From the NCBI GenBank assembly GCA_012270795.1, contig JAAXHO010000228.1:1-46720 (forward strand): 46,720 nucleotides of DNA, read 5' to 3'. The translations under genes and the position numbers were made by a program. The stretch is from Candidatus Poribacteria bacterium (GTDB taxonomy: Bacteria; Poribacteria; WGA-4E; WGA-3G). Of the stretch, positions 1 to 46,461 are shown piece by piece. Numbering within the stretch: position 1 is the first letter of the stretch; each line of letters starts with the position of its first letter. Below the pieces are notes generated by a model. It made no database searches. It saw nothing but the letters and a program-made list of their open reading frames with translations, and had not been told where the DNA came from.

Positions 1-136
1 AGCTAATGAGAAATTATATTTTAGAAATGGTATTAGCATTTATGGCATAAGATTATCAGCATCTAAGCAAGACGTTTAATCGTAGGTATCTTCTCCGCGC
101 CTTCCGCGATTCTGTACCCAAATCCGCGCTATCAAC

Positions 137-506
137 CGATAGCCGACTACTGAAAGCCATTGGATATATATTGGAAATCCCAATAAACAGACGCCCAAAA
201 ATCTACAAAACGCATTAAAAATCACTTATAATATATACAAAATAAGCACACAACAAGAACGCTATGCAAAACCAAAATCAACACAAAAAACACCAACAAA
301 AAAACCGTACCGAAATCCGACAATAATTTTACCAAAAAAACACTACAAAAACTCCCATGAAGCTTTATGAAAACTGGACGCATAACGAATTAACAAAACC
401 GTACCGTACGGTACGGTTTTTAAAGTAGAAAATTCTTATGAAATCAAAATAAATACACAAAAAAATTTGCAGTTATTCTTCACACAAACAAGAACTTTAC
501 ACACCC
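137..506 (-). mobile_element. Left-end element, internally deleted copy
   Basis: This stretch is the reverse complement, with a few mismatches, of the right end of the window. Bases 137 to about 489 pair with about 46346-46720. After that the left copy jumps directly to a 20 bp inner end (487-506) that matches 46094-46113 inverted. About 250 bp present in the right copy, the body of a small ORF, is therefore missing here. The start codon of that ORF survives, but the fifth codon is TAA. The inner end carries the ACTTTACACACCC terminus shared with the elements at 13316-13565 and 17599-17859. No transposase is present. The outer limit is unknown because the right copy runs off the window. Confidence 0.8.
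395..420. promoter_or_regulatory. Perfect 26 bp palindrome, operator-like (left copy)
   Basis: A perfect palindrome whose 20 bp core is ACCGTACCGTACGGTACGGT. It lies about 18 bp before the start codon of the small ORF of this element, and the same palindrome is kept in the right-end copy. The repeated GTACGGTAC units look like a binding site for a dimeric or multimeric protein. A terminator role is less likely because there is no loop. The protein that would bind it is not identifiable. Confidence 0.5.
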
Positions 507-650: not shown

Positions 651-803
651 TGTCTGAACCAGGATTTTCAGGATTACCAGATTTACAGGATTTACCTCAT
701 CAAGGGTTTTTGATGAGCGTTTATGTTTTCTTTTAGAATAGGATTTGATGAGAATAATCCTGAAAATCCTGGTTCAGACAAGTAACCAAAACTTTAAACA
801 CCC
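651..803. repeat. GTCTGAACCAGG inverted-repeat element, copy 1
   Basis: Bounded by TGTCTGAACCAGGATTTTCA on the left and its inverted counterpart ending in GGTTCAGACA on the right. The right side continues into AAAACTTTAAACACCC, a slightly mutated form of the terminal sequence seen on the elements at 13316 and 17599. It is one of five copies in the window and has no coding content. Confidence 0.75.
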
Positions 804-3563: not shown

Positions 3564-3726
3564 TTATACCATTTCTAATTGATAATGTCTCATTAGTTGT
3601 GGAGAACTGGTAGGAGCGACCTCCCGGTCGCGACCGGAAGGTCGCTCTTACCGAAGAGCGGCACCTCAATCCGAAATAACAGTAGAATTCCTTAATGAGA
3701 CAATATTTTTTAGAATTGGTATTATA
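3564..3726. repeat. TACCATTTCTA-type MITE-like repeat carrying a GGTCGC hairpin
   Basis: The ends TTATACCATTTCTAATTG and TTTAGAATTGGTATTATA are inverted, and the pairing continues inward through AATGTCTCATTA/TTAATGAGACAAT. The centre holds TAGGAGCGACCTCCCGGTCG with its complement, a hairpin motif also present at 5815 and 46010. It is non-coding and lies in the convergent gap. Confidence 0.75.
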
Positions 3727-3727
3727 T

Positions 3728-3756
3728 AATAGGCGCGCTTACATTGTGCGCCTATT
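3728..3756. terminator. Bidirectional terminator between convergent genes
   Basis: A hairpin with 9 bp arms AATAGGCGC/GCGCCTATT and an 11-base loop, placed between the 3' ends of the convergent oxidoreductase and isomerase-like genes. The A/T flanks would supply U tracts in both directions. Confidence 0.6.
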
Positions 3757-5661: not shown

Positions 5662-5749
5662 TCGTTGCTCCTTTGATGAATTTGTATGATAGTTCAATTT
5701 AGCAAAATCTGTATTTTTTATCAATATTTAAGATGTGTTGAATCAGATT

Positions 5750-6072
5750 CATTCAATTGTCGAATCTCCCTATTGTTGGAGGGGTTTTCAACCCCGATTT
5801 TCCCTAGCTTCTGTAGGAGCGACCGGGAGTCGCTCCTACCTTAAGAAACTTATGTTATACCATTTCTATATGGTAATCTTACATTATTTCGTAGGTCGGG
5901 TAGAGCTTGCGAAACCTGACACGTTCAGTGCCTGTCGGGTTTCGCAAGCTCTACCCGGGGAATGCTATATAGCATTCATACCGTTGATTTCTTGATTTGG
6001 ACCTACAATATGTTATGGCAATTTATCATATAGAAATGGTATTAGAATTTGCGCTTAATCGACAATTGAATG
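5750..6072. repeat. ATTCAATTGTCGA-ended repeat (contains a nested second repeat)
   Basis: Begins ATTCAATTGTCGAATC and ends with the inverse TCGACAATTGAAT. The left part has TTGGAGGGGTTTTCAACCCC and a TAGGAGCGACCGGGAGTCGC hairpin, the same modules as the repeat at 45657-46085. A different element (5855-6044) sits inside it. It fills most of the 550 bp divergent gap between the oxidoreductase and the next operon. Confidence 0.7.
5855..6044. repeat. TACCATTTCTA-type repeat nested in another repeat
   Basis: Inverted ends TTATACCATTTCTATATG and CATATAGAAATGGTATTA. Inside is the GTAGGTCGGGTAGAGC hairpin and, at 5957-5990, the uninterrupted segment GGGGAATGCTATATAGCATT that continues CATACCGTTGATTT. 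The same segment is split by an insertion at 45797. Confidence 0.75.
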
Positions 6073-6111
6073 ACTCTGTGTGTTGAATAGTGTAGTTTTG
6101 GGAAATAAGAA

Positions 6112-10117: not shown

Positions 10118-10914
10118 TTAGAAACCCCTTCTACGATTTATGAGATAGGTTGTAGACTTTAGTAATCCCCAAGTTGTTGTTACTTTTCCGGTTGCTTCCA
10201 CAGCGGCGTAATCTGCTAATCCGATAGACATGACATCGTTAATTTGATTTTGAGATAGTGCTTGTGTAAAGAAACCGACTTCGTCAAAGAGACCAGTTGC
10301 TGCAACGGGTCCTGGTCGTGCTCCAATCCAAATGGGTGATTCACTGGTATCAAGCGTTCCGCCACTTGGACTTTCACCTTCTAATTTTCCATCAATAAAC
10401 ATCTGTACATTTTGTCCATCATAGACTTTAGCGATGTGATGCCACTTATTGTCAGCAACGATTGTTTTACCTTCAATCCGTCCTTCAACACCTTTGACGT
10501 GCCACATAAACACGGGAAAGTCATTTTGGTGAATCCAGATATCGAGATGGCGTACATTTTTTGGTTCTGGCCAGACATCTCCATTCCACCAGACAACATA
10601 TTGCCATGAAGCTTCTTGCAACTTGACCCATGCGACGAATGTGTAAGGATCGGCATTGAAGACATCGTTGTGAGGATGCGGACATAACTATCACCCTGTC
10701 CTGGAAAGTCCAATGCTCCGCCGAATTTACCGTTATTGACCCATGTCAAAGAACCGTTGATATCGCCATCGTGCCCACTGACAATGTCTTTAACAACATT
10801 TCCGCCATTTTCTTCAAATAACCATGCACTTGCTAATCCAAGTTTGACTGCATGTGCAGATGAGGTTGCAATGCCGATAATTATTATCATAGTTAATATA
10901 GCTGTTTTCATCAT
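10118..10914 (-). pseudogene. LamG-domain secreted protein, frameshifted
   Basis: The first frame (from 10914) encodes a signal peptide (MMKTAILTMIIIIGIATSSAHA) and the start of a LamG/concanavalin-like domain as far as GDSYVRI. It then changes to the frame that continues EASWQYVVWWNGDVWPEP to DEVGFFTQALSQNQINDVMS and stops at 10118. Against the intact neighbour at 10911-11684, one C is missing in the codons for IPHND (near 10675), a run of Cs where a deletion or sequencing error is easy. Its start overlaps the stop of that neighbour (ATGA), with AAAGGAGG inside the upstream gene, so the pair is a coupled tandem duplicate. A full product would need the missing base. Confidence 0.85.
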
Positions 10915-11684
10915 ATACCTCCTTTTAATTCAGCCCATGTTGTAGTTGATTTTTTGATTGCTTCCACAGTGGCGTAATCTGCTAATCCGATAGACATGAC
11001 ATCGTTAATTTCATTCTTTGTAAGTGCATTTGTAAAGAACCCGACTTCGTCAAAGAGACCAGTTGCGGCGATATTGTTTGGATTCGCGCCGATCCAGATG
11101 GGTGATTCATTGATGTCCAACGTTCCCTCACTGGGCATTTCAGTATCCATTATTCCATCAATGAACATTTTGACACTATTCCCATCATAGACTTTTGCGA
11201 TATGATGCCATCTATCATCTGTAATAATGGTTTTTCCATCAATTTGTCCACTATTTTTGCCAGCGGTCCACATGAAAACTGGAAATCCATCGGCGTGTAT
11301 CCAGATATCTATATGACGAGTTTCTTTGGATTCGGGCCACACATCCCCGTTTCTCCAGATGATATATTGCCATGATTTAGATTTTAACTTGACCCATGCG
11401 ACGAATGTGTATGGGGCAGCGTTGAATACATCATTGTGAGGGATACGTAGGTAGCTGTCAGGATTGCCTAAGTATCTCAAACATCTTCCAAATTTTCCGT
11501 AAGTAAACCAGCTTAGTTTTCCTATTATTTCCCCATCATTTTTACCGACGACATCTTTGGCTACTGTTCCGTTTCTTTCTTCAAAGAGCCATGCGCTGAC
11601 TAATTTGAGTTTTCTGGCGTGTGCGGCAATAACAGTGCAGTGGATGAGTATTGTTAGGCTCAATAATATCGTTATTTTTTTCAT
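10911..11684 (-). CDS. Secreted LamG/concanavalin-like jelly-roll protein
   Basis: The frame opens at a TTG at 11699, but the ATG at 11684 is preferred because the paralogue downstream starts at the same place with a similar leader (AGTAGGTAT versus AGGAGGTAT). The protein is 257 residues with a signal peptide (MKKITILLSLTILIHCTVIA then AHA). A single LamG domain follows, with YLRIPHNDVFNAAPYTFVAW, RWHHIAKVYDGNSVKMFIDG and GLFDEVGFFTNALTKNEIND, the hallmark strands of this fold. It probably binds glycans or matrix outside the cytoplasm. It sits directly after the enolase-superfamily gene, whose stop overlaps the upstream TTG, so the three genes form one unit. Confidence 0.88.
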   Translation of the reverse strand: MKKITILLSLTILIHCTVIAAHARKLKLVSAWLFEERNGTVAKDVVGKNDGEIIGKLSWFTYGKFGRCLRYLGNPDSYLRIPHNDVFNAAPYTFVAWVKLKSKSWQYIIWRNGDVWPESKETRHIDIWIHADGFPVFMWTAGKNSGQIDGKTIITDDRWHHIAKVYDGNSVKMFIDGIMDTEMPSEGTLDINESPIWIGANPNNIAATGLFDEVGFFTNALTKNEINDVMSIGLADYATVEAIKKSTTTWAELKGGI

Positions 11685-13315: not shown

Positions 13316-13565
13316 GGGTGTGTAAAGTTTTTGTAGAAACATTCATATGACTTTTGTCCACGATCTTTTTTCTCGTATGTCTATAGTCTTTTCACTTGTC
13401 TGAACCAGGATTTACAGGATTTACAGATTTTCAGGATTTACCTCAACAGGTTTTATTCCCAAAGTTGACATCAATCCGCATCAAAAAGCCTTGATAAGGT
13501 AATCCTTGTAATCTGTAAATCCTGTAAATCCTGGTTCAGACAAGTAACCAAAACTTTACACACCC
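13316..13565. mobile_element. MITE-like element with GGGTGTGTAAAG ends, copy A
   Basis: The 250 bp element starts GGGTGTGTAAAGTTTT and ends AAAACTTTACACACCC, perfect 16 bp inverted termini. Inside is a GTCTGAACCAGG/CCTGGTTCAGAC inverted module. It is almost identical to the reverse complement of 17599-17859, differing by about two substitutions and a 10 bp repeat unit. The flanking bases GTTTCGGAT and GTTCCGGAT may be an imperfect 9 bp target duplication. It encodes no protein. Confidence 0.85.
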
Positions 13566-17598: not shown

Positions 17599-17859
17599 GG
17601 GGTGTGTAAAGTTTTGGTTACTTGTCTGAACCAGGATTTACAGGATTTACAGATTACAAGGATTACCTTATCAAGGCTTTTTGATGCGGATTGATGTCAA
17701 CTTTGGGAATAAAACCTGTTGAGGTAAATCCTGAAAATCTGTAAATCCTGTAAATCCTGTAAATCCTGGTTCAGACAAGTGAAAAGACTATAGACATACG
17801 AGAAAAAAGATCGCGAACAAAAGTCATATGAATGTTTCTACAAAAACTTTACACACCCC
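17599..17859. mobile_element. MITE-like element with GGGTGTGTAAAG ends, copy B
   Basis: Starts GGGGTGTGTAAAGTTTT and ends AAAACTTTACACACCCC, flanked on both sides by TTATAG (17593-17598 and 17860-17865), a likely 6 bp target duplication. The interior is the reverse complement of copy A at 13316, plus one extra 10 bp unit of the TTACAGGATT type. It has no ORF of its own. The two copies lie inverted about 4 kb apart. Confidence 0.85.
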
Positions 17860-24112: not shown

Positions 24113-24338
24113 GAGTGTGCAAAGTTTTTTGTATTTGTCTGAACCAGGATTTGCAGGATTTACAGATTTTCAGGATTATGAGTTTGAGATATTACGCGCC
24201 ATTCATAAGTTGGCATAAATCTGTGTCAAAAACCATTGATAAGGTAATCCTGGTAATCTGATAATCCTGCAAATCCTGGTTCAGACAAATAACTAATACG
24301 TTACACCCTTTCAATGTATGCAAAAATATTTACACACC
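24113..24338. repeat. Degenerate MITE-like element with GTCTGAACCAGG core, copy E
   Basis: The left end GAGTGTGCAAAGTTTTTTGT is a mutated form of the GGGTGTGTAAAGTTTT terminus. The core is bounded by GTCTGAACCAGGATTTGCAG and CTGCAAATCCTGGTTCAGAC, and TTTACACACC lies near 24330. It is older-looking than copies A and B and occupies the gap between korA and the HEAT gene. Confidence 0.65.
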
Positions 24339-36372: not shown

Positions 36373-36491
36373 TAATACCATTTCTAAGTAATAAAGTCTC
36401 TTTTATGTAGCATAAACTGCCAGTTTGTGCCTAAAGAATGACTCCCATAACAACCGTTTTAATGAGACAATAATTTATAGAAATGGTATAA
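36373..36491. repeat. TACCATTTCTA-type MITE-like repeat, short form
   Basis: Inverted ends TAATACCATTTCTAAGTA and TTTATAGAAATGGTATAATA, with AAGTCTC/GAGAC pairing inside. This copy lacks the large hairpin insert of the copies at 815, 3564 and 5855, and may be the basic form of the family. Confidence 0.7.
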
Positions 36492-36622
36492 TATAAAAAT
36501 AGAAGTAACATGGGTATAATCTCTTCTTGTGTGGGTATTGTCCCCTCGATTTCTTTTTTAGGCACGACCCGGTGAGTTTTGACGTTAAAAAACGAAAACT
36601 AAATAGTCCACATAAATTATAG

Positions 36623-45636: not shown

Positions 45637-45656
45637 TTACTTCAGGGTTATTGTGC

Positions 45657-46085
45657 AGAGGCATTCAATTGTCGAATTTTGTTATTGTTGGAGGGGTTTC
45701 TAACCCCGATTTCCTCAGTTTCTGTAGGAGCGACCTCCAAATCAACGGTATGAATCATGGCGAATCATGCAGAATACCACACGGGGAATGCTATATGAAG
45801 ATTAACTAAATAATTCGGTAATATCTTAGCGATGATCGGTGCGGTTAGGAAACCGCAAATCAACGGTATGAATGCCATTTAGGCATTCCCCGCCTACCGA
45901 GTTTGGGGAAAATTAGAATTACCGAAAGAATAAGTTAATCTTCATATAGCATTCATACCGTTGATTTGGCGTATTCTACCAAGCGCATTCGCCTTATGGC
46001 ATTCCCCGGGTCGCGACCGGGAGGTCGCTCCTACCTTAAGAAACATAAATTCGAATGTGTGCTTAATAGACAATTGAATGCCTCT
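45657..46085. repeat. Repeat with perfect 17 bp inverted ends, containing nested repeats
   Basis: The ends AGAGGCATTCAATTGTC and GACAATTGAATGCCTCT are exact inverses. Internal modules match the repeat at 5750-6072: TTGGAGGGGTTTCTAACCCC and the TAGGAGCGACCTCC hairpin. A second element is inserted at 45797-45944. The block also contains the GGGGAATGC/GCATTCATACCG module in both orientations. It is non-coding. Confidence 0.78.
45797..45944. mobile_element. TA-inserting MITE-like element
   Basis: Begins TGAAGATTAACTAAATAATT (then CGGTAAT) and ends with the near-inverse ATTACCGAAAGAATAAGTTA (then ATCTTCA). The flanks read GGGGAATGCTATA and TATAGCATTCATACCG. The uninterrupted form GGGGAATGCTATATAGCATT occurs at 5957, so the insertion duplicated TA. 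A TA duplication is the habit of IS630/Tc1-mariner-type transposases. No transposase is encoded here. Confidence 0.75.
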
Positions 46086-46112
46086 GGGTTATAGGGTGTG
46101 TAAAGTTCTTGT

Positions 46113-46397
46113 TCAATTTCGTTTTTTTGGTAGTGTAGACATCATTTTGCATGCAATTTTCGTTAGCTCAGATTCTCCAAAACATACCACGTGGTATGAA
46201 ATAACATACCGTGGTATGTTTTGAAAATTGGCTTTCAATCCAGTCTTAGTAGGGTCTGAAAGGTTTTTTTCAAAAACATTAATTTTTTCTGAGTATTTTA
46301 GTATGTCTGTTTTTTTATTTGGTTTCGTTGCTTTATGTTTACTCCTTTTTGTGTGAGGAATAACTGCAAATTTTTTGTGTATTTTTTTAGATTTCAT
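46113..46397 (-). CDS. Possible small basic protein of the right-end element
   Basis: 94 codons. The first 30 residues are very basic (MKSKKIHKKFAVIPHTKRSK, HKATKPNKK), which would suit nucleic-acid binding. The rest shows no family. The C-terminal third overlaps the palindromes at 46183-46218, which is odd for a conserved coding region, and no ribosome site is visible. The left copy of the element keeps the ATG but has a stop at codon 5 and lacks the body. It may be a decayed or non-translated frame. Confidence 0.3.
   Translation of the reverse strand: MKSKKIHKKFAVIPHTKRSKHKATKPNKKTDILKYSEKINVFEKNLSDPTKTGLKANFQNIPRYVISYHVVCFGESELTKIACKMMSTLPKKRN
46179..46222. repeat. Cluster of CATACC/GGTATG palindromes
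   Basis: CATACCACGTGGTATG (46183-46198) is a perfect 16 bp palindrome. AACATACC-GT-GGTATGTT (46203-46220) follows at once, and the outer arms AAAACATACCAC and GTGGTATGTTTT also pair. It looks like a multi-site protein-binding region or a foldable RNA within the element. Confidence 0.55.
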
Positions 46398-46414: not shown

Positions 46415-46461
46415 AAAACCGTACCGTACGGTACGGTTTTTTCGGTTTACGGTACGGTTTT
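46415..46461. promoter_or_regulatory. Perfect 26 bp palindrome plus extra half site (right copy)
   Basis: The palindrome at 46415-46440 is the same as the one at 395-420. A further half site, GGTTTACGGTACGGTTTT (46444-46461), is present only in this copy. It lies 18 bp before the ATG of the small ORF, a position suited to a repressor or activator. Confidence 0.5.

Follow-up and report, generated by a model that had tools for sequence, protein, structure and literature searches.

Repeats at both ends of the window

The window, i.e. the whole stretch of 46,720 bp analyzed here, is the complete contig C148 of its genome (G000), whose fragmented assembly comprises 5.18 Mb in 298 contigs and is 95% complete. 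Related assemblies carry the name Candidatus Poribacteria. Two related copies of one repeat are located at the ends of the window, and further elements with the same terminus lie between them. The copies and termini, including terminal inverted repeats (TIRs), were as follows:

32-506, minus strand: left copy with its TIR end at 489-506 and an internal 236-bp deletion; homology to copies on C130, C158 and C241 reaches base 32
489-506, minus strand: ISKra4-type TIR GGGTGTGTAAAGTTCTTG; the same end is found on complete insertion sequences (IS) of sister genomes
790-803, minus strand: solo TIR-like end with 1 mismatch, adjoining a TTGTCTGAACCAGG repeat
13316-13565, no strand: 250-bp non-autonomous element, TIRs at both ends, flanks GTTTCGGAT / GTTCCGGAT (8 of 9 positions)
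17600-17858, no strand: 259-bp non-autonomous element, inverted relative of 13316-13565, flanks ATTATAGG / CTTATAGG (7 of 8 positions)
46094-46111, plus strand: ISKra4-type TIR GGGTGTGTAAAGTTCTTG, corresponding to the inner of two tandem ends in C241, C273 and C290
46094-46720, plus strand: right copy with its TIR end at 46094-46111, cut by the contig end; approximately 84-90% identity to the copies on C197, C156 and C241

Positions 137-492 of the left copy aligned in inverted orientation to 46720-46345 of the right copy (90% over 378 bp, E 2e-135), which bears out the inverted related copies described in the original prediction. The inner end of 20 bp said to be common to both was an exact match (487-506 and 46113-46094). 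Just inside this end of 18-20 bp the left copy lacked 236 bp (right-copy positions 46112-46347); the gap had been predicted correctly, with its size given as about 250 bp. The deletion junction showed a 2-bp TT microhomology. At the sequence level, the left copy is supported as an internal-deletion derivative of a longer relative.

Base 137, previously regarded as the boundary of the left copy, is only where the right copy stops at the contig end. Judged by further copies in the genome, the left copy extends to approximately base 32 and is followed by a different repeat. At approximately base 31 this repeat and the contig start cut off its outer end. For the left and right copies alike the outer end falls beyond the contig, and neither copy is provably whole. 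Repeats of a third family, which have TACCAATTCTAAAAAATAATGTCTCATTAA-like ends, were present at 1-31, 3692-3729, 6015-6050 and 36459-36496 as well as within copy C273; it is a repeat of this kind that sits at the contig start and breaks the left copy near base 31.

A whole-genome search with the right copy found 12 contig ends inside the element, C148 included, compared with approximately 1 expected from random breaks by a rough estimate. The original prediction treated the bracketing of the window as a biological arrangement. Since the window is an entire contig and 12 contig ends fall within the element, the bracketing is the outcome of assembly breaks in a multi-copy repeat and has no biological meaning. 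The element accounts for some of the contig breaks in assemblies from the genus, and repeats that seem to bracket a metagenome contig should be compared with contig ends before a biological meaning is assigned.

That both ends represent a single locus, duplicated in the assembly of a circular or overlapping contig, is extremely improbable. Both copies do sit at contig ends, but dozens of further copies exist in the genome. Because left and right differ by about 10% and by the 236-bp deletion they are separate copies, and the assembly artefact considered in the original prediction does not apply.

Distribution of the terminus and target duplications

The terminus of the element, i.e. its TIR, is GGGTGTGTAAAGTTTTTG. 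With up to 1 mismatch it was found at approximately 214 sites in G000, and the reversed pattern at 0. All 18 genus genomes searched contained it, with 272 sites in G009 (a single 5.34-Mb contig) and the highest count, 303, in G013. Within the window the shared end gave 8 matches with up to 2 mismatches vs. 0.38 in shuffled sequences. Terminus sites pair facing inward, mostly 150-400 bp and up to approximately 1.6 kb apart. The inner end was also correctly recognized earlier as the terminus of the smaller elements at 13316 and 17599 (here 17600), both of which are TIR-bounded, and ACTTTACACACCC is supported as a true transposon end common to these two elements. The TIR string GGGTGTGTAAAGT had no match in the literature searched. 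An exact-pattern scan of genome contigs gave no match.

The genome-wide search for full-length copies, which had been proposed to define ends and target duplications, yielded the whole copies C273 and C241 with common TIRs. C273 is 1090 bp in size, carries the exact 9-bp duplication ATGTTAATT on both sides and contains two further insertions. C241 is 857 bp in size with the duplications ATTAATCCT/ATTAGTCCT. Target duplications of 8-9 bp are thus present at these whole copies. Some copies, including C241, C273 and C290, have tandem double ends approximately 36 bp apart on one side; the right copy of the window starts at the inner one. Exact or near-exact duplications of 8-10 bp were found at 11 of 106 TIR pairs in 2.0 Mb of G009 (0.36 in shuffles), and duplications at 4 of 33 pairs in G000 (0.2 in shuffles). 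Most TIR pairs had no detectable duplication.

These data bear on whether the repeats are immobile, i.e. conserved repeats with a regulatory or structural role that were dispersed by recombination, with ends that are alike by coincidence. Operator-like palindromes conserved across the genus would fit such a view. The paired inward-facing ends and the exact 9-bp target duplications argue against it, as does the presence of the same ends on complete IS, and we consider it highly improbable.

Insertion sequences with the same ends

Scanning of loci with the terminus revealed a 1480-bp element in G014 with a single 449-aa frame between such ends. The protein scored 232.9 bits on the NCBIfam ISKra4 model NF033572 (cut-off 205), and copies from G014, G008, G003 and G009 scored 222-248 bits against the same cut-off. 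Complete IS of the ISKra4 family (Mutator superfamily), 1.43-1.48 kb in size and with the same ends, were found in the sister genomes G014, G008 (1473 bp), G009 (1460-1466 bp; duplications AAAATAAA and ATCTCTTTC, the latter exact) and G035, which belongs to another genus of the family (1430 bp; flanks GTATGATAG/GTATGATAC). The published features of p-MULT elements, i.e. inverted repeats 18-39 bp in length, a conserved cytosine at the terminus and duplications of 8 or 9 bp (PMC3942029), agree with those found here. One of the commonest repeats of the genus is now tied to a defined transposase family, and the element offers a testable bacterial case of trans-mobilized Mutator-type elements carrying gene leaders.

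The ends of genomic element copies matched those of the IS from G008, G009, G014 and G035 over 16-23 bp, and only approximately 18-25 bp at the ends are common to IS and element. Because nothing but the ends is shared, the window elements are, judged by their sequence, TIR-sharing non-autonomous elements and not shortened IS copies. The original prediction of a parent and its non-autonomous derivative holds for the left copy as a deletion derivative; the longer copy, being non-coding and having only its ends in common with the IS, is not supported as an autonomous parent.

The ISKra4 transposase was found in 11 of the 18 genus genomes. Neither protein nor profile searches gave a match in the fragmented, 95% complete assembly of G000, and none was found in G013, the genome with the most TIRs. 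Absence from G000 is not proven, since assemblies of this sort collapse identical copies, and the transposase is represented by C-terminal fragments at contig ends in G008 and G016. The search for a linked transposase was accordingly negative in the own genome and positive in sister genomes, in the form of ISKra4 IS with the same ends. The earlier suggestion that one mobilizing activity may serve all elements is plausible, and this activity can now be named as an ISKra4-family transposase, which occurs in the sisters with identical ends. We infer that the element was mobilized in trans and that the lineage of the window once possessed an ISKra4 transposase.

Could the ends have been moved by an IS256-family (p-MULT 1) transposase instead? 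This family has similar termini and 8-9 bp duplications, and a class-level relative carries an IS256 copy with AGGTGTGTAAATT ends (G059:C200). However, PF00872 was absent from the genome of the window and from 16 of the 17 other congeners searched, two fragments in G010 lacked the ends, and ISKra4 copies bear exactly the right ones. We consider an IS256 partner very unlikely in view of the lack of this family in the genus. In a search of the own genome and 60 relatives IS256 was either absent or without the right ends. Two further candidates were rejected: IS1595 is present in 15 of the 18 genus genomes, yet without these ends, and within the first 1.2 Mb of G009 the transposases present in multiple copies have distinct ends.

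Composition of the interior

The following features were found in the interior of the two copies:

395-420, no strand: palindrome AAAACCGTACCGTACGGTACGGTTTT in the left copy
438-473, plus strand: the same putative passenger-gene start as in the right copy, with a stop at codon 5
46178-46223, no strand: second, imperfect palindrome array ACATACCACGTGGTATG..ACATACCGTGGTATGT; self-match with counterparts in several congeners
46362-46397, minus strand: putative start of a decayed passenger gene, MKSKKIHKKFAV, with the start codon at 46397; aligns with intact leaders and starts
46415-46440, no strand: perfect palindrome AAAACCGTACCGTACGGTACGGTTTT within the leader of the passenger-gene remnant of the right copy

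DNA matches of the element to congeners were confined to two palindrome-rich blocks. One of these constitutes the leader of a 220-240 aa gene that is intact in G014, G008 and G012, and the intact leaders and starts could be aligned (MKFEDRHKQFVV, MELQEKHKEFAV and MKLQEHHKEFAV). The window copies retain leader, palindrome, start codon and approximately 12 codons (MKSKKIHKKFAV vs. MELQEKHKEFAV) and decay beyond. Resemblance of the gene family to DUF2280 and phrog_546 was weak, with scores below curated cut-offs. In G009 several relatives of the gene are located beside or between the same ends, many of them truncated early. The interior thus looks like a decayed gene-carrying cassette. No RNA family of Rfam matched the element copies.

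The right copy contains an open frame of approximately 94 codons starting with MKSKKIHKKFAV, as would be expected if the longer element were autonomous and encoded an unrecognized transposase. This is a highly unlikely reading: stops or shifts break the frame in most other copies, with no sign of purifying selection across them, and relatives of the start belong to the family weakly resembling DUF2280, not to a transposase. Moreover, whole copies contain no ORF above approximately 103 aa and hence no transposase gene.

A 1.58-kb element of G009 carries a 297-aa gene between the same ends, with the exact duplications ATTTATCTG, GCATAGATT and GGTGATTCA. Relatives of this gene across the order are ordinary genes. 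The ORF was rejected as a transposase, as its order-wide relatives look like single- or few-copy HTH-like genes, lack TIRs and gave no transposase match.

In the 220-240 aa gene family (loci L073, L074, L067 and those of G009) the leader palindromes vary by species (CGTACGG, TACCGTACGGTA and CGTACAGTTGTACG). Since they differ between species, this suggests operator sequences that change with their regulator. The regulatory role of the palindromes, if any, is presumed.

Proposed origin and comparison with known elements

The repeats at the window ends are most probably copies of a high-copy non-autonomous transposon, either a large MITE or a decayed mobile insertion cassette (MIC), with ends of the ISKra4 family (p-MULT 4, Mutator superfamily). 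An ISKra4 transposase supplied in trans would recognize the 18-20 bp ends GGGTGTGTAAAGTTTTTG and move any DNA between two of them, giving rise to the 8-9 bp target duplications. Internal deletions leaving the ends intact would produce smaller members such as the left copy. The interior would derive from a gene-carrying cassette of which the palindromic leader and the start codon were kept while the gene was broken.

The element is already of a known kind, namely a non-autonomous one of the ISKra4/Mutator type, and is moderately new, the gene-leader cargo being the part of interest. With ISKra4-family IS it shares TIRs of 18-20 bp with GGG...CCC ends and 8-9 bp duplications (p-MULT 4; PMC3942029); unlike these, the window elements encode no transposase and have no interior in common with them. 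Additional genes of unknown function accompany the transposase in four published ISKra4 elements (PMC3942029). Among the papers searched, those mentioning both ISKra4 and MITEs do not deal with such a case, judged by their titles and abstracts.

Like MITEs, the element is short, non-coding, high-copy, TIR-bounded and reliant on a partner IS. However, with 700-1090 bp its whole copies are rather long for MITEs, and they do not derive from the partner by deletion; it is the long element from which the left copy arose in this way. Like MICs, it has IS ends around non-transposase DNA, and relatives carry genes between the same ends, as in the 1.58-kb element of G009 with its 297-aa ORF. In that element the passenger is intact, whereas in the window copies it is broken, with the leader and approximately 12 codons left. 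Given a cognate transposase, MICs and MITEs are both able to move (PMC3129680).

A further comparison is offered by plants. Pack-MULEs are plant Mutator elements with captured pieces of genes. Here as well, ends of the Mutator superfamily surround mixed interiors that include gene starts and leaders. In contrast to Pack-MULE-type capture, no specific host donor locus was pinpointed for the interior, although homologous intact genes exist in relatives, and the passenger could have belonged to the element for a long time. We tentatively raise the rather unlikely possibility of a bacterial counterpart of Pack-MULEs in this poribacterial genus, in which an ISKra4/Mutator transposase mobilizes a large and varied set of segments between 18-bp ends, among them whole genes of host families as well as leaders whose palindromic operators are lineage-specific. 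If true, sites at which DUF2280-like DNA-binding proteins regulate genes could be dispersed over the chromosome by such a set.

Other repeats in the window

Inverted-repeat cores of the TTGTCTGAACCAGGATTTACAGG type were present at 650-782, 2344-2490 and 24135-24288. Since such cores are found both inside ISKra4-type ends (13316 and 17600) and without them, they may be nested or captured repeats. Elements with CAGAGGCATTCAATTGTCGA-type inverted repeat ends were located at 5744-6078 and 45656-46086. These ends are those of an H-repeat/ISAs1-like IS in G009 (138513-139841), and the elements probably form a further family of MITEs that has a partner of its own. Furthermore, positions 1476-2099 contain a tandem array of approximately 126-bp repeats with 77-79% identity (SPDG-type motif, WD40-like coding), and at 10168-11441 neighbouring duplicated coding segments lie 766 bp apart with 74-87% identity.
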